From Oceanicoccus sagamiensis (GTDB lineage: Bacteria; Pseudomonadota; Gammaproteobacteria; Pseudomonadales; Dasaniaceae), in the NCBI RefSeq assembly GCF_002117105.1, contig NZ_CP019343.1, positions 496,001 through 560,000 of the forward strand: a stretch of DNA of 64,000 nt. Reading direction: 5' to 3'. Position numbers and translations under genes: made by a program. Of this stretch, positions 18,925 to 61,968 are shown piece after piece; the first letter of the stretch is position 1; every line of letters begins with the position of its first letter. The notes beneath the pieces were generated by a model. It ran no database searches and had not been told where the DNA came from. It saw only the letters and a list, made by a program, of their open reading frames with translations.

Positions 18925-19009
18925 GTTTTAATTTTTCTTTATAAACAATATGTTAGCTAGTTATCGGCAGGGTGTTGTCAAGGAATTGGCAAGTGGGGGG
19001 GGGCTGGAG

Positions 19010-19119
19010 GGAGGGAGCGAGGGTTTGCCTTTCAGGGGACGCTACAAGTTCGTCCATGAAGGCTCGTGAAAAAGGTCCCTCTTTTTCACGCCCCTGAAAG
19101 ACAAGCCCTCGCTCACTCC
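19010..19119 (-). repeat. Nested inverted repeat, copy A
   Basis: Outer arms 19010-19038 and 19091-19119 pair almost completely (core GAGCGAGGG and CCTTTCAGGGG). Inside lies a perfect 10-bp hairpin, CGTGAAAAAG (19065-19074) with CTTTTTCACG (19081-19090), whose loop reads AGGGAC on the minus strand. Between hairpin and outer arm is the segment GAGCCTTCA-GGACGAACTTG-TAGCGT (minus strand), shared with copy B in opposite orientation. Same family as 19206-19315 and 60046-60192. Confidence 0.75.
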
Positions 19120-19205
19120 TTCAAGTTCACGCCATTATTTGAGTGTGTGAATATAAAGAATGCCAAAAGCCAAAAGGCTGGAAAGAAATTGTAAACGTGA
19201 TGCCA

Positions 19206-19315
19206 GAGCTGAGCTGGGTTGGGGTATATGAGACCGTCGCTGGCAGGGATGCCAGCGAAGAGCCTTCAGGGACGAACTTGTAGCGTGTCGCATATACCCC
19301 AACCCAGCTCAGCTC
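19206..19315 (+). repeat. Nested inverted repeat, copy B
   Basis: Outer arms 19206-19230 and 19291-19315 are a perfect 25-bp inverted repeat beginning GAGCTGAGCTGGG. Inside is GAGACCG, then a perfect 9-bp hairpin TCGCTGGCA-GGGA-TGCCAGCGA (19237-19258), then AGAGCCTTCAGGGACGAACT and GTAGCGTGTCGC. Flanks (GTGATGCYAG before, GTTCCA after) are shared with copy C at 60046-60192. Confidence 0.8.
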
Positions 19316-19366
19316 GTTCCAGCACCACCTAGTCGCTCAAGCCTCTTCCAGAGATACGGTAGAGGC

Positions 19367-20464
19367 TTACTTACGCTGCAAATCGTATTTACGCATTTTT
19401 TCCACCAGCGTAGTACGACGGATTTTCAGTTTTTCTGCGGCCCGAGCTACCACACCAACACTGTCATCCAAGGCTTGCTGAATCAGGCTGCGCTCAAGGT
19501 TGGTCAGGTATTCTTTAAGGTCGATGCCATTGACCGGTAACAGCGCTGTGCTATCCATGGTGGCAACCGTCGGCATACCTTCTGAACGGGCTGACTCGGG
19601 AATAATCAGGTCTTCATCGGCCTCATCAACATGGCGGAATTTTTTCGGTAACTCCTGTACACCCACCACACCATAGGGGTGCAGAATCGCCATACGCTCG
19701 ACCAGGTTAGCCAGCTCCCTGACATTGCCTGCCCACTCATGGCGGCACAGTGACATAATTGCCGCTGAGTTAAAGCGGATAGAACCGCGCTTTTCATTTT
19801 CCAGCCGGGTGACCAGCTCATTCAATAAAAGAGGAATATCTTCAACCCGGTCACGCAGTGGCGGCATTTCTATGGGGAAAACATTGAGCCGGTAATAAAG
19901 GTCTTCACGGAAACCGCCGTCACGAATCATTTCTTCAAGATTGCGGTGGGTCGCAGTGATAATCCGCACATCGGTTTGAATGGTTTTATTGCCACCAATC
20001 CGTTCAAAGCAGCGCTCTTGTAATACGCGCAGAATTTTTACCTGCATATCCAAGGGCATATCGCCGATTTCATCGAGAAATAAGGTACCGCCCTGAGCCA
20101 TTTCAAAGCGCCCTGCTCTGGCTGTTACAGCACCGGTAAAAGCTCCCTTCTCATGGCCAAATAATTCGCTCTCCAGTAACTCACGGGGGATAGCACCACA
20201 GTTAACCGGGACAAAGGGCATATTGCGACGGTGGGAGTTGTAATGCAGTGTGCGGGCGACGACTTCCTTACCGGTACCGGACTCACCGGTAATCAGTACG
20301 GTGACATCTTTATCCGCCACCTGAGCCATCATCTCGCGGACTTTTTGAATCTCACGACTGGTGCCCACCAGGCTGCGAAATAGCTGTACATCACGCTGCT
20401 GCACCCGGCCGGCATTAATATCATATTGCTCTCTATACACCTGAGCCCGGTGCAGGGAGTCCAT
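19367..20464 (-). CDS. fleQ: Flagellar master regulator FleQ/FlrA, main part (AAA+ and HTH) downstream of a frame break
   Basis: Residues 1-365 of this frame cover the FleQ body: [15 protein letters not shown] linker, AAA+ domain with Walker [15 protein letters not shown] sigma-54 loop, Walker [14 protein letters not shown], and the Fis-type HTH ([23 protein letters not shown]). FleQ is the c-di-GMP-responsive sigma-54 activator at the top of the flagellar cascade. The N-terminal FleQ domain lies in another frame (20486-20814). With one extra base in the G6 tract at 20480-20485 the two join as [17 protein letters not shown], matching known FleQ sequences, and total 482 residues. As written, the full-length protein cannot be made; translation from the ATG at 20464 would lack the N-terminal domain. 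Confidence 0.85.
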
Positions 20465-20814
20465 AAACTTATTGTAGCTGGGGGGAATTCCAGTTGAGCA
20501 ATCGCCTTATGCTGCAAATCGATATCATCAACCTGCTCTAGCTGGTGCTCGCCAATCAGAATAATCGGGCAGGCGCGGTCCCATTGCTGGGTTTCTTCAA
20601 GCCTCTGCTCAAGGGAAAGACCGCCACATTCCCCAAATACCAGCGCCTTGATCTGGCGGGTATTTTCTTTAGCGTCGTCGCTCTGGCAAATATCCGTCCA
20701 CTGCTGACAGGAAAAGGTCACCGGGTTCTCACCCAAAAAATCCAAAATTACCTGCGCATCATGGCGGCGCTGGTCATTATCGTCGATAACGATAATATTG
20801 TTGTCTTCCCACAT
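20329..20814 (-). pseudogene. fleQ: FleQ N-terminal domain, frame-separated from the rest of fleQ
   Basis: Starts at ATG 20814 (MWEDNNIIVIDDNDQRRHDA), the receiver-like FleQ N-terminal domain that lacks the usual phospho-acceptor chemistry. Homology runs to AQLEFPP at about residue 112; everything after that (20329-20479 in this frame) is a nonsense tail overlapping the true fleQ frame. The break is the G6 tract at 20480-20485 on the plus strand. Either a 7-to-6 contraction or a sequencing error. Promoter region upstream includes TTTGAC-CT-GTCAAA and a TTGACC -35 candidate near 20930. Confidence 0.75.
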
Positions 20815-42453: not shown

Positions 42454-42646
42454 GATTTTTAAACCATTGATAAATAAGGAATTTATTATTAAAGGGGTGG
42501 GATAACGGCAAGGGGTTTCCGCTTTTTTGGGAGGAGGTGGCAAAGGGCGGCAATGCTGTGGTGTTATTGCCGTCTGTGTATTTTGCTATTCCCTTGGCTG
42601 TGTTCTGTTAAAGAGATTTCAAGACACCGCTAACGATCAGACATAG

Positions 42647-42711
42647 TAGGGTGGATTATAATCCACCAAGCCCAACCAGAAGCAGTCATTAAGGGCGGAT
42701 TATAATCCACC
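42647..42711. repeat. GTAGGGTGGATT-type palindromic repeat, pair
   Basis: TAGGGTGGATTATAATCCACC at 42647-42667 (perfect palindrome GGTGGATTATAATCCACC from 42650) and a second near-identical palindrome at 42694-42711, 26 bases apart. Same family as 49203-49268 and 59883-59953. Similar sequences are common small mobile-like repeats in proteobacteria. It lies between flgB and cheR. Confidence 0.75.
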
Positions 42712-42756
42712 CCAGCTAATGGGCCTTTGCCGGGGTGACGTAACGGGCTATGGGTT

Positions 42757-49202: not shown

Positions 49203-49268
49203 TGTAGGGTGAATTGCAATCCACCTTTATACAGCCAGCAGCTTTTGGTGGATTACAATCCACCCTAC
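49203..49268. repeat. GTAGGGTGGATT-type repeat, composite copy
   Basis: Two palindromes, at 49203-49225 and 49247-49268 (GGTGGATTACAATCCACC plus CTAC), separated by 21 bases. Outer ends TGTAGGGTG and CACCCTAC form terminal inverted repeats, giving a 66-bp MITE-like unit. Lies upstream of arsS. Confidence 0.75.
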
Positions 49269-49325: not shown

Positions 49326-49571
49326 TGAAGTGCCCTGGGTGGGCTAGGAGACCATGAATGGTGAAGGTTGGCAACCAGTGGCATTGTGACGTTTCGTTTA
49401 CTTTGCGTTGTTGCCTTGCTTGGTAGTTATATTAGGTAAGCTAGCATAATTACACCAATGCAACATTACTATCCAAAGCATGCCTTCAGGTAATAGTAAG
49501 AGATTAATCAGGGCTGGGCAGGAGAAGAATATTCTTTTAGAATCAGCGGCCTTCTTGTTTGGGAAATTATT

Positions 49572-49612
<41 letters not shown>

Positions 49613-49674: not shown

Positions 49675-49751
<77 letters not shown>

Positions 49752-57983: not shown

Positions 57984-58024
57984 ATAGGAGGTTTAACGCC
58001 GAAAGAAGTGGCGGCCAACCTGGG

Positions 58025-58099
58025 AACGAGCTGTGCCGGGTTGGTATTTTATGCTTTCTTTCAGGGGCGTCAAAATGCAGGGAGGACGACTACATTTTA
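58025..58099 (+). repeat. Degenerate copy of the nested inverted-repeat family
   Basis: GAACGAGCTGTGCCGGGTTGG, CTTTCAGGGGCGTC and a broken inner stem AAAATG-CAGGGA...CATTTT recall copies A-C (19010, 19206, 60046), but only one outer arm is present. It lies between the aldehyde dehydrogenase and the first tandem-GntR gene. Confidence 0.5.
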
Positions 58100-58195
58100 G
58101 GCATGCCAACGGCAAACTATCGCCAATCACCCCGGTTTAGTATATTCTTTGCTGCAATAACAGCCCTATCCTATGCGCCGGAAAGCCAAAACAAG

Positions 58196-59632
58196 ATGCC
58201 CAAGCCAAAAACACAAAAGCTAGCCTCTCGACTAGCACAACAAATTGCTAAAGACATCTTTGAAGAGGGCTTGGAAACGGGGTCACCACTCGGTAAAGAG
58301 CCGGAGCTGCTTAAAAAATACAAGGTAAGCCGCGACTCATTTCGCGAAGCTGTTCGAATTCTTGAATGGCAAGGTATCGCCAAATCAGTAAGAGGCCCCA
58401 AAGGTGGCTTGCAAGTTGGGTCTCCGGCATCGGGTGCTATTTCCAATTTACTGCGTGATTACCTGCAACTGGCAGACACCCCCACTAAAGACCTGTTAGA
58501 AGCCAGCCGTGTCTTGAATGCCTTAACCATTAAAATATTATCTTCAACACTGGATAGCGAAGGCAGTGATAAACTGTTTAAGCTGACGGCAGAAAGAAAA
58601 GTACTTCATGGCTCGCCGAAAGAAGAACAGCGGGCCTTATGGAATGTTTTTAAAGAGATGGGGCAGCTAACCAACAACCCTGCTCTGGCCATATTTATGG
58701 CACCCATTCACGAAGTGCTGACCAGCATGGCGCTAAGTTCCCGTAGAACCAATAAAAAGGATTTTATCACTGAAGGTCAGCAGGTTTGGCGCAATATTCA
58801 CAAATGTACTGCGGCCATTATCGCAGGCGATGAAGCTACCGCTGTTACTCATATGAACTACTACCTCGACCAAATCGAGCAGTATATGGCCCCTGCGCCC
58901 AAACTAGCTTCAACCAAGCGCAAAACAAAAACCAGCTACCCGACCTGGATTAAAGAGAATGACAATAAGTTGGCCCAGTCATTTATGTACCAGTTACACC
59001 ATGATATTCATGCTAAACAACTGCAGCCCGGAGACCGCATTGGGCAAGAAACCGATCTCATCCCAAAATACGCAGTAAGCCGCTCTATTTTTCGAGAAGC
59101 CGTGCGCATGTTAGAAATGATTGGCTTAGTTGAGCAGCGCAAAGGCAGAGAAGGCGGCTTGGTTGTTGCTACGCCAGACTCCAGCGGTATTGTTCCCACC
59201 ATATCCATCTTTCTTACTCATATGAATTATGATTTTGACAAACTCAATCAGTCAAGATTACCGATTGAAATGAAAGTAGCCCAACTGGCTGCAAAAAAAA
59301 TCGATGAAAAAAGCGCTAAAGCTCTAACAGAAGCCATCAGCATTGAACAACAAGCCAGCGGCGAAGAATTTATTCCTGCAGCCACCCGTGTGCACACGCT
59401 GATAAACCGAATTGCTGATAACCGTGTTTTTTCACTCTATGTAGACGTTATGATGGATGCCAGAGCCTTCAAACTCGAAGAACCGCGCAGAGCCAACAAA
59501 GCTATAAAAAATGCCAAAAAAATCAAGGACAGCCATCGCTTACTCGCTAAGGCTATTCTTAATAAAGACCCATCACTGGCAAGCCGAAAAATGATTGAGC
59601 ATAGAAAACTCATGACTGAACTACAACGGTAA
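58196..59632 (+). CDS. Tandem FadR/GntR regulator: two complete GntR-FCD modules in one chain
   Basis: 478 residues from ATG 58196 (MPKPKTQKLASRLAQQIAKD); the frame is open to 58103 with non-homologous sequence. Module 1: winged helix at about 5-75 (EPELLKKYKVSRDSFREAVR, then ILEWQGIAKSVRGPKGGLQV), FCD-like helices at about 90-235. Module 2: winged helix at about 270-345 (ETDLIPKYAVSRSIFREAVR, MLEMIGLVEQRKGREGGLVV), FCD-like at about 355-475. In module 1 the usual FH metal ligand is replaced (NVFKEMGQLTNN), in module 2 a His is kept (RVHTLINRIADN). One chain could mimic a GntR dimer. Target and ligand unknown; location favours the adjacent polyamine-type genes. Confidence 0.85.
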   Translation: MPKPKTQKLASRLAQQIAKDIFEEGLETGSPLGKEPELLKKYKVSRDSFREAVRILEWQGIAKSVRGPKGGLQVGSPASGAISNLLRDYLQLADTPTKDLLEASRVLNALTIKILSSTLDSEGSDKLFKLTAERKVLHGSPKEEQRALWNVFKEMGQLTNNPALAIFMAPIHEVLTSMALSSRRTNKKDFITEGQQVWRNIHKCTAAIIAGDEATAVTHMNYYLDQIEQYMAPAPKLASTKRKTKTSYPTWIKENDNKLAQSFMYQLHHDIHAKQLQPGDRIGQETDLIPKYAVSRSIFREAVRMLEMIGLVEQRKGREGGLVVATPDSSGIVPTISIFLTHMNYDFDKLNQSRLPIEMKVAQLAAKKIDEKSAKALTEAISIEQQASGEEFIPAATRVHTLINRIADNRVFSLYVDVMMDARAFKLEEPRRANKAIKNAKKIKDSHRLLAKAILNKDPSLASRKMIEHRKLMTELQR

Positions 59633-59800: not shown

Positions 59801-59824
59801 GTGAGACCGTTAAAATACAGGGAG
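59801..59824 (+). repeat. Fragment of the nested inverted-repeat family
   Basis: GTGAGACCGTTAAAATACAG followed by GGAG is identical to the inner part of copy C (60068-60089) through GTGAGACCG-TTAAAATACAGGGA, then the sequences part. Arms are missing. Confidence 0.7.
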
Positions 59825-59882: not shown

Positions 59883-59953
59883 TGTAGGGTGGATTATAAT
59901 CCACCAGCCGTTAATGATTTGCAGGCCGATGGTGGAATATATTCCACCCTACA
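59883..59953. repeat. GTAGGGTGGATT-type repeat, composite copy
   Basis: TGTAGGGTGG at the left and CCACCCTACA at the right are terminal inverted repeats of a 71-bp unit with two inner palindromes (GGTGGATTATAATCCACC, 59888-59905; GGTGGAATATATTCCACC, 59931-59948). Confidence 0.75.
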
Positions 59954-60045: not shown

Positions 60046-60192
60046 GAGCTGTGCTGGGTAGGAGTTTGTGAGACCGTTAAAATACAGGGATGTATTTTAT
60101 CGAGCGCCGAGCCTGCCCCATGACCGAAGGGAGTGCTTTGGGTACAGGGATGGCTTGCAGCGTGTCGCACAAACTCCTACCCAGCACAGCTC
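60046..60192 (+). repeat. Nested inverted repeat, copy C
   Basis: Perfect 25-bp outer arms 60046-60070 and 60168-60192, starting GAGCTGTGCTGGG. The inner hairpin TAAAATACA-GGGA-TGTATTTTA (60078-60099) is perfect. GAGACCG precedes the hairpin and GCAGCGTGTCGC the right arm, as in copy B. Compared with copy B, five arm positions differ and every one is compensated on the other side. Confidence 0.8.
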
Positions 60193-60510: not shown

Positions 60511-61968
60511 TTGACCGAATCAGTGCGCCAAACACCCAAACGGGCAGCCCGTCTAGCGGAAGAAATCACCGCGGATATTATTGCCAACCAACTGCCCCAG
60601 GGTCATTATTTGGGCACCGAGCCGGACTTACTGATCAAATACCATATTAGCCGGGACGCCTTCCGTGAAGCTATTCGTATTCTTGAATGGCAAGGAATGG
60701 TTCAGTCGATCAGGGGGGCTCGCGGTGGCATTCAGGTTGCCAACCCCAGCCTGGACAATGTCAGCAATATGCTACGGGAATACATCCAACTTAGCGGTGC
60801 CTCGTTGCAGGATATTCTTAATACCAGCCGTATTATTAGCCAGTTCGCCATCGAGTTAGAAGTTAAGCAATTAAACGATGACACCAGAAGGGCATTGAAT
60901 AATCTGCTGGATGAGTACCTGGATTATTCACCGGCACAATGGTCAATGCAGACACTGACAGAGGAGTTGCATAAATACTCACAAATACTGACAGAATTTT
61001 CAAAACTGACCAAAAATCCTGTTGTCGCTATCTTTAACAAGCCGCTCAACGAAGTATTAACCAACAGGATAAACTTCAGCCAACTGAGTCAGGAAGAACT
61101 ACAGCAGGCGTTTTCGTTCGGCTGGAAACTGTATGCCGAGGTCACCCAAGCCATACTGGATGGCGATGCCCAAAAGGCGCTGGAGAAAAGATTTTCTTTC
61201 CTCGACAACCTTGAAATACTGATTGAAAAATCCAATAGCAAGAGCTCAGCCAGCGATGAACGGCAAGACTCTATTCCCTACTGGGTCACCGACACCCCGC
61301 ACAAAAAAGCACAAACGCTGCTTTACCGTATCAAACACCATATTGATAGCGAGCAACTTGAACCGGGCAACACCATTGGACGGGAACCTATACTGATAAA
61401 ACAATATGGGGTTTCCCGCTCCATTTTTCGGGAAGCCATCAGGCAGCTTGAAATTATCGGGCTGGTGCAGCAACGCAAAGGAAGAAGTGGCGGCCTGATT
61501 GTTGCTACCCCGAACTCCAGTGCTATTGTCAGGGCAGCCGTATTGTTTCTGGGTACCACCCACTTCGACTTAAACCAACTACAGCAAGCCAGAGTGGCCA
61601 TTGAAGTCAAAGCGGTAGAAGTTACCGCCACGGCTATCACCCCGCAGCAAGCGACTATTCTCAAGCAGGCCTTTGAGGCCAGCCAAGCACTCCATGGCTT
61701 TGACTATATTCAAGCAGCCCTGGAACTCCACTCACTGATTATTCAATTTTCAGGGAATCAGGTACTAGCCTTATTTATGGATGTACTGGTAGAGTCCAGT
61801 ATGATCAGGCCGGACGATAATGCGCACATTGAAAAAGTGATTGCCAATATTGAAGTGATTAAAAAAAGCCAACACGCCCTGATGACTTCCATTCTTGCCA
61901 GAGACCCGGTCAATGCCGTCAAACAGATGCGATCCCATGGGGAATGGGTGAGCAACATTATCCAGTAA
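60511..61968 (+). CDS. Tandem FadR/GntR regulator, second copy
   Basis: 485 residues, TTG start with AGGAC 8 bases upstream. Same layout as 58196-59632: winged helix 1 at about 8-80 (EPDLLIKYHISRDAFREAIR, ILEWQGMVQSIRGARGGIQV), FCD-like at about 85-235, winged helix 2 at about 265-340 (EPILIKQYGVSRSIFREAIR, QLEIIGLVQQRKGRSGGLIV), FCD-like at about 350-480. The two proteins align along their whole length, so they are duplicates of an already fused gene. Target unknown. Confidence 0.85.
   Translation: MTESVRQTPKRAARLAEEITADIIANQLPQGHYLGTEPDLLIKYHISRDAFREAIRILEWQGMVQSIRGARGGIQVANPSLDNVSNMLREYIQLSGASLQDILNTSRIISQFAIELEVKQLNDDTRRALNNLLDEYLDYSPAQWSMQTLTEELHKYSQILTEFSKLTKNPVVAIFNKPLNEVLTNRINFSQLSQEELQQAFSFGWKLYAEVTQAILDGDAQKALEKRFSFLDNLEILIEKSNSKSSASDERQDSIPYWVTDTPHKKAQTLLYRIKHHIDSEQLEPGNTIGREPILIKQYGVSRSIFREAIRQLEIIGLVQQRKGRSGGLIVATPNSSAIVRAAVLFLGTTHFDLNQLQQARVAIEVKAVEVTATAITPQQATILKQAFEASQALHGFDYIQAALELHSLIIQFSGNQVLALFMDVLVESSMIRPDDNAHIEKVIANIEVIKKSQHALMTSILARDPVNAVKQMRSHGEWVSNIIQ

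Follow-up and report, generated by a model that had tools for sequence, protein, structure and literature searches.

Small RNA genes with many short hairpins encode the sponge RNAs CsrB/CsrC and RsmX/Y/Z. Among palindromic intergenic repeats, the REP/REPIN elements, which go with RAYT enzymes, carry a GTAG-type tetranucleotide at the foot of the hairpin. In Yersinia, De Gregorio et al. reportedly described a palindromic repeat named YPAL in 2006. This repeat, YPAL/RU-2, measures 167-168 bp, and the RU-2 sequence was printed by Delihas (2007, PMC2759123). YPAL occurs in 60 intergenic regions of the genome described (Delihas, 2007, PMC2759123; review PMC2229807). It is reported to be mobile: sites occur both filled and empty, and target duplications measure 3-26 bp. 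The repeat is also reported to be transcribed together with the genes upstream of it, and it may influence the stability of their transcripts (PMC2229807). The RNA motif TwoAYGGAY (Rfam RF01731) was presented in 2010 as a probable RNA that is probably not cis-regulatory, and was reported from the human gut, Gammaproteobacteria and Clostridiales (Weinberg et al., PMC2864571). Binding of CsrA by TwoAYGGAY was proposed in 2014 (PMC4333381). Published CsrA/RsmE sites include the ANGGAN hexaloop and the SELEX sequence RUACARGGAUGU, and CsrA can bridge two sites that lie 10-63 nt apart, with an optimum above 18 nt (PMC7652899).

Here we describe a repeat family with two GGA-loop hairpins on one long stem. 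Its units are, in our favoured and fairly probable reading, dispersed RNA elements of the TwoAYGGAY/YPAL kind, each putatively docking one CsrA dimer.

A double-hairpin repeat family in the window

The window, that is the whole 64,000-nt stretch of DNA analysed, corresponds to bases 496001-560000 of a 4.47 Mb single-contig genome. It holds three units, A, B and C, and two remnants.

19010..19119, minus strand: unit A; arms 19010-19038 and 19091-19119, core 19039-19090; covariance model match E 7.2e-18
19075-19080 and 19052-19057, minus strand: loops of unit A, AGGGAC and ATGGAC
19120..19205: spacer of 86 nt between the divergent units A and B
19206..19315, plus strand: unit B; arms 19206-19234 and 19287-19315; covariance model match E 2.7e-17
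19245-19250 and 19268-19273: loops of unit B, AGGGAT and AGGGAC, 23 nt apart
58020..58099, minus strand: degenerate remnant with an outer arm end and a variant core (CAGGGAGGACGA on the plus strand of the window)
59803..59823, plus strand: truncated unit reduced to the inner end of an arm, one half of stem 1 and AGGGA
60046..60192, plus strand: unit C; arms 60046-60074 and 60164-60192; covariance model match E 5.6e-17
60086-60091 and 60146-60151: loops of unit C, both AGGGAT, with a 36-nt insert between them that carries a further AGGGA

The original prediction, made from the sequence of the window, had located A, B and C here, with A inverted and showing an AGGGAC loop, and had pointed to fragments near 58025-58099 and 59801-59824; all three units are present and both fragments are remnants of the repeat. 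The arms of B and C are 29 nt each and 97% complementary, with a single mismatch: the outer stem consists of 25 perfect pairs, one A-G mismatch and 3 further pairs. Comparison of the 25-nt arms of B and C shows five differences, at positions 7, 15, 18, 21 and 23, each of them compensated in the opposite arm as had been claimed. The arms of A, also 29 nt, have 3 mismatches. The core of C is 37 nt longer than that of B, mostly through the 36-nt insert. Folding-energy z scores are -10.6 for B, -11.8 for C and -7.2 for A, and for each unit 0 of 200 shuffles folded as well. The spacer between A and B ends in GTAAACGTGATGCCA, which is common to other B-type units.

The inner stems of B and C do pair over 9 bp around GGGA, as predicted; an alternative reading is an 8-bp stem with an AGGGAT hexaloop. 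A constant GGGA loop, on the other hand, does not hold for the family: the second loop of A is ATGGAC, containing TGGA, and other copies show AAGGA, ATGGA or ACGGA. The loop is better described as an ANGGAN hexaloop closed by a C-G pair.

Across copies, a unit reads in the order arm, first hairpin, GAGC linker, second short hairpin, GCGT, arm. The typical unit is thus a stem of 20-35 bp carrying two hairpins with C-G closed ANGGAN loops; the median arm length is 28 nt, with 157 of 168 units between 20 and 35 nt. Units in the window's genome span 88-147 nt excluding the spacer, and 6 of the 17 tabulated have an insert of about 36 nt with a further AGGGA. In units of other genomes a common core is CGTC-stem-CANGGATG-stem-TCGAGCGTACANGGAYGTATTYACAGCGT.

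Copies in the same genome and across the class

BLAST of unit B against its own genome gave 27 matches at E<=1, five of them, counting B itself, at E<1e-10. A covariance model trained on 14 units of this genome gave 21 matches there at E<=0.01, and further copies were found in other genomes of the class. Since both methods recover copies beyond A, B and C, the repeat family is not a chance resemblance, and a real double-hairpin repeat family is confirmed.

In an evenly sampled set of the class, the covariance model found the family in 29 of 274 genomes and 25 of 222 genera. Among 22 relatives, the window's genome included, 9 carry it. Matches per genome within the window's genus number 21, 0, 3, 0, 0, 0 and 3, and two relatives are rich in units (G285 with 20 matches and G287 with 13). 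The exact core pattern was found in at least 118 stretches in named genomes, 80 of which were turned into loci; genera among the matches listed include Marinobacter, Microbulbifer, Sedimenticola, Rheinheimera, Zobellella and Pseudomonas, from which we take the class sampled to be Gammaproteobacteria. A 32-nt core had no match among 50,697 phage records, viral contigs gave no exact match to the core, and plasmids gave 2 partial core matches. The core pattern also occurs in nine records titled Klebsiella pneumoniae MAG (L094, L095, L111, L117, L125, L132, L136, L155 and L157), whose titles look doubtful.

For comparison between copies we aligned 105 units (104 distinct) from 86 loci, namely 62 of the 80 pattern loci and 24 of 28 class loci; the 18 pattern loci left out were cut, weak, without match or oddly titled, and the 4 class loci left out were shorter. 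The pattern that fetched 62 of the 86 loci fixes most of loop 2 and the model was trained on units of the window's genome, so conservation among the model hits is partly selected.

First-loop letters were counted in the 77 of 105 units whose first stem has at least 5 pairs; many of the other 28 have an interrupted stem around a similar loop. In these 77 units the fixed places are nearly invariant (A in 76, G in 75, G in 76 and A in 75). The second letter varies freely between T (40) and G (33), with A in 3 and C in 1, and the last letter is T in 54, C in 19 and A in 4. Of the 104 distinct rows, 101 have a C-G pair closing loop 1 and all 104 have one closing loop 2, the latter pair being set by the fetch pattern for many of these rows. 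By our reading, tandem G-A mismatches persist in several of the first stems (in Microbulbifer units and G285 variants), a feature also noted for TwoAYGGAY (PMC4333381).

Selection on the folded strand

The original prediction held that the folded form of the repeat is under selection, and both lines of evidence below bear this out. In the alignment of 105 units, standard pairs fill 95.2% of pair cells. The covariation score is 0.798, compared with 0.170 for shuffled alignments and no more than 0.148 for slid controls; the alignment was fitted to the structure and therefore leans towards a high score.

Mismatch asymmetry is a less model-dependent test. When one arm of a hairpin undergoes a transition, G-T and A-C are equally likely to result, and selection on one folded strand separates the two. 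From 183 units we retained 168 after removing repeated arms and arms shorter than 14 nt; the window's genome is represented by the 17 units of the hairpin script and not by all 21 model hits. Read on the ANGGA strand, the arm mismatches comprise 121 G-T and 28 A-C (p 6e-15), and beyond the modelled positions 80 and 20 (p 1e-9). Counted by unit, G-T is in excess in 71 and A-C in 12. Other mismatches include 16 G-G vs 2 C-C and 34 A-G vs 12 C-T, and 52 of the 168 units have no arm mismatch. Twenty-four control inverted repeats in the pattern loci show G-T and A-C in equal measure (12 vs 11).

The strand favoured by the asymmetry is the one that carries the GGA loops. Selection on the folded ANGGA strand is therefore well supported, and that strand is most simply RNA; single-stranded DNA would show a similar strand preference, so RNA is the simplest reading and not a proven one.

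Relationship to TwoAYGGAY and YPAL

The original prediction knew of no named family with these features. Named relatives do exist, namely Rfam TwoAYGGAY and the Yersinia repeat YPAL/RU-2, to which other members of the class match. A match to a named repeat, which the prediction had listed as an outcome that would count against it, is thus found at the level of the wider family, and for A, B and C themselves, which match neither clearly, it is not.

Within the window's genome the link to TwoAYGGAY runs through another copy, L035, with loops AGGGAT and ATGGAT. It scores 47.7 against the RF01731 cut-off of 43 bits, and unit B matches it by BLAST at E 2.6e-11. A copy in G218 is also over the cut-off, and L036 scores 33.2. 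A genome-wide RF01731 scan with stricter filters, in which 9 candidates were scored, missed L035 in the window's genome. At the gathering threshold RF01731 did not match A, B or C; it gave no match to A/B at E<=1 and none to the loci of B (L040) and C (L043) at E<=10. An Rfam scan of the window at gathering thresholds returned tRNA only, and the models of the CsrB/RsmZ group had no match. Matches to eukaryotic miRNA families lay far below the cut-offs and were read as chance matches of long hairpins. The Yersinia small RNA Ysr224 also stayed below its cut-off of 70 bits, with scores of 30.3, 22.5 and 21.2 on the strand complementary to that of the ANGGA loops. Over the class sample, RF01731 matched 17 of 274 genomes, 13 of them over the cut-off, and only G073, G186 and G218 are shared with the 29 found by the model of the window's units.

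The printed YPAL/RU-2 sequence (PMC2759123) has a long stem bearing the loops CAAGGATG and CATGGATG at a distance of 24 nt. BLAST of YPAL/RU-2 against class members gave its best match at L088 (87% over 54 nt, E 5.9e-12), on the ANGGA (plus) strand only. Matches to the window copies are short and weak (E 0.056 for C, 0.20 for A and 2.6 for B), so the link to YPAL runs through other class members.

The window family shares with TwoAYGGAY two GGA-loop hairpins on one base stem, here supported by covariation, as well as several copies per genome and divergent pairs. It differs in that the loops of the window branch are mostly AGGGAY and that A, B and C fall below the cut-off: AYGGAY in both loops is found neither in A (AGGGAC, ATGGAC) nor in B (AGGGAT, AGGGAC) nor in C (AGGGAT, AGGGAT). 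With YPAL it shares two loops on a long stem and a dispersed distribution, whereas its units in the window's genome are shorter, at 88-147 nt against about 168 bp. We conclude that the window family, TwoAYGGAY and YPAL look like branches of one superfamily, and that the AGGGAY-rich branch of the window is a formal member of neither. The Yersinia repeat of 2006 and the RNA of 2010, which was left without an assigned function, would then belong to one apparently class-wide superfamily. What is new is the AGGGAY-loop branch and the proposed joining of two families that have so far been treated apart.

The resemblance to other systems is more partial. Several GGA hairpin loops of the CsrA/RsmA type are shared with CsrB/CsrC and RsmX/Y/Z, from which the family differs in having two loops per long stem and many dispersed copies. 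Like REP/REPIN and other palindromic intergenic repeats, the units are short, intergenic, multicopy and found in inverted pairs; unlike REP/REPIN, they have arms that vary between copies yet stay complementary, CsrA-like loops and no link to Y1 enzymes.

Predicted docking of CsrA

ANGGA motifs were counted in 162 cores, from which repeats and one false hairpin (L248) had been taken out. Two motifs are present in 128 cores and three in 8; the 26 cores with a single motif count against a two-site reading. In the 136 cores with at least two motifs the distance from start to start is 23 nt in 99 and 24 nt in 20; these 119 lie within the published CsrA bridging range of 10-63 nt, with gaps of 18 or 19 nt between motifs. 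The antisense strand lacks ANGGA in 156 of the 162 cores. Among the 82 cores of loci that were not fetched by pattern, the exact SELEX 12-mer is present in 9.

We infer that the ANGGA strand is transcribed in this organism, mostly within the 3' portion of the transcript of an adjacent gene and otherwise as a small RNA. The long base stem would then hold two short hairpins side by side, and one CsrA/RsmA dimer may clamp both of the C-G closed ANGGAN hexaloops across the 18-19 nt between them. With many such sites in a genome, CsrA would be drawn to the transcripts bearing them, or sequestered on them. Strand-specific mismatches, free N places and a near-fixed spacing of 23-24 nt argue independently that the RNA is folded and that CsrA is its partner, and on these grounds we consider the predicted docking of CsrA by the units reasonably probable. 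Papers on CsrA together with palindromic, interspersed or REP repeats included, judging by titles and the starts of abstracts, none that treats these elements as CsrA sites. In the text of the review that covers YPAL (PMC2229807) CsrA occurs 0 times, and no paper naming both YPAL and CsrA was found in a search of main texts that covered few subscription papers.

CsrA genes were found in 27 of the 29 element genomes of the class sample and in all 22 genomes of the relatives set, including the window's genome. With CsrA in 235 of 274 class genomes its presence tests little, and it does not discriminate carriers (27/29) from others (208/245; p 0.40); the two carriers showing no CsrA are G069 (88% complete) and G100 (67% complete). 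Two or more CsrA genes were found in 12 of 29 carriers vs 42 of 245 others in the class sample (p 0.005). Among the relatives, however, a single CsrA gene is present in each of the unit-rich genomes G285 (20 matches) and G287 (13), while no match was obtained in G276 and G274, which have 6 and 4 CsrA genes. CsrA gene number as a driver of the family, being associated in the class sample and not among relatives, was set aside. The window's genome itself has eleven CsrA-type genes (L299-L309), ten of them near-typical with a VHREE or IHREE stretch. Ten genomes of its taxonomic family, this one included, have 3 to 11 CsrA genes; in the class sample, by comparison, 220 of 274 genomes have at most one. 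The high number looks like a family trait.

Divergent pairing and genomic context

Among contigs with at least two hits near each other, 30 of the 33 pairs of model hits within 400 nt are divergent, against an expected share of one quarter (p 2e-15); two are minus-minus and one is plus-plus. The hairpin search found one convergent pair (L254). Pairs from the Rfam TwoAYGGAY model (e.g. in G158 and G269) are likewise divergent. In 14 divergent pairs the spacers range from 34 to 257 nt, and in pairs of the window's genome and some of G285 similar leader letters appear, inverted, at both ends of the spacer.

The A/B pair is flanked by two minus-strand genes, a PAS histidine kinase and a sigma-54 activator by Pfam. 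A simple scan around A/B (18950-19370) found no sigma-70-like promoter and no terminator-like site. In relatives G274, G277 and G278 the corresponding gap is shorter and without the pair, at a distance too great to define ends or duplications. G275 and G279 have another repeat in place of the pair, and G276, with its flanks on different contigs, was outside the comparison. The repeat in this gap at loci L285 and L286, from two relatives, differs from the present family (GACGTCATTCCCGCGAAGGCGGGAAT), so the gap may be a landing site for repeats.

Neighbouring genes were taken from rough ORF calls, with which 30 of 105 units overlapped, while 10 were without a neighbour. For the 65 units with both neighbours called, the layout was co-directional forward in 22, convergent in 21, co-directional reverse in 15 and divergent in 7. 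The upstream gene is co-oriented with the unit in 43 of these 65, which favours the 3' ends of genes. Intrinsic terminators were considered and rejected: a run of at least 4 T follows the arm in only 5 of 104 units, and none was found at A/B.

How the copies spread and what maintains them

The dispersal of the family invites an explanation at the level of DNA. The units could be mobile palindromes of the MITE or REPIN-like kind, in which a transposase reads a single-stranded DNA hairpin and the GGA loops serve as recognition marks. This would account for the many copies in the window's genome (21) and in G285 (20), their patchiness within the genus, the divergence of 30 of 33 close neighbours and the lack of the pair from the A/B gap of relatives. 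It would also agree with the filled and empty sites and the 3-26 bp target duplications of the relative YPAL (PMC2229807), and the strand asymmetry could arise in single-stranded DNA as well. The original prediction had raised copying through a hairpin intermediate, with a RAYT or other HUH enzyme to be looked for, and copying by such an enzyme gained no support: Y1_Tnp is found in 23 of 29 carriers vs 163 of 245 others (p 0.21), the carriers G054, G069, G073, G079, G202 and G239 have no match, and the window's genome has one weak match. The core was not found in the phage records or viral contigs, and variation at the N places of ANGGAN is a prediction of CsrA binding. We regard a mobile DNA-level palindrome as an unlikely account of the family, though it may apply to the spread of the copies. 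A related idea, that the arms are copied from the target at insertion, came from G285, where arms differ while cores are near-identical. It was set aside: arms have similar lengths and end letters within a genome (the window's, G285 and G269), and in two Marinobacter records (L085/L086) with flanks 94% identical the arms are the same but for one base.

Two further accounts concern what keeps the structure in place. Hairpins are reported to arise and to be kept up through template switching (PMC8794818), and if correction of this kind during DNA replication were the only reason for complementary arms, with no selected function, the 52 of 168 units with perfect arms would follow readily. It does not predict the loops or their spacing, and a symmetric process would not favour G-T (121 vs 28, with 12 vs 11 in the control). 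Unequal base pair frequencies in the stems of RNAs can, however, be accounted for by template switching according to the same paper (PMC8794818), which leaves this argument strong and not absolute; as a full account we hold it to be quite improbable, while template switching may help to keep the arms perfect. Alternatively, the units may be structured 3'-UTR elements for mRNA stability or processing, read by a protein other than CsrA such as an RNase. The co-oriented upstream neighbour in 43 of 65 units and the rarity of gaps between divergent genes (7 of 65) speak for a position of this kind, though from rough ORF calls, and YPAL possibly affects the stability of upstream transcripts (PMC2229807). 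Two ANGGAN loops at such spacing point to CsrA instead, and another reader appears very improbable. To our knowledge, no reader other than CsrA is described for two such loops at this distance.

Returning to units that dock CsrA, a bolder version is possible, although we put it forward tentatively and on balance doubt it. The superfamily uniting YPAL and TwoAYGGAY might act as a self-spreading, distributed CsrA sponge, in which MITE-like two-site hairpins, often in divergent pairs, move into the 3' ends of genes across Gammaproteobacteria and connect, in each genome, tens of unrelated transcripts to the Csr network. If this were true, a repeat element would be carrying the binding sites of a global regulator around genomes.

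Other features of the window

In the sigma-54 activator region next to unit B (19367-20814, minus strand), ORFs 19367-20464 and 20329-20814 overlap in different frames, which may point to a split gene or to a sequencing error. Unit C is flanked by two similar genes, at 58103-59632 and 60511-61968, each of which has two GntR stretches together with either one or two of the FCD type. Another inverted-pair repeat (GTAGGGTGGATTATAATCCACC ... GGTGGATTGCAATCCACCCTAC), which looks unrelated to the first, is present at 42646-42712, 49204-49265 and 59884-59949 of the window and at L025. It forms a tandem array near position 1374600 of the contig, and at several loci it lies inside or beside remnants of the double-hairpin element. 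Finally, a 42-nt stretch at 49571-49612 is an exact copy, 103 nt upstream, of the one covering the first 41 nt of tRNA-Arg(cct) (49675-49751), as after duplication or integration at the tRNA start.
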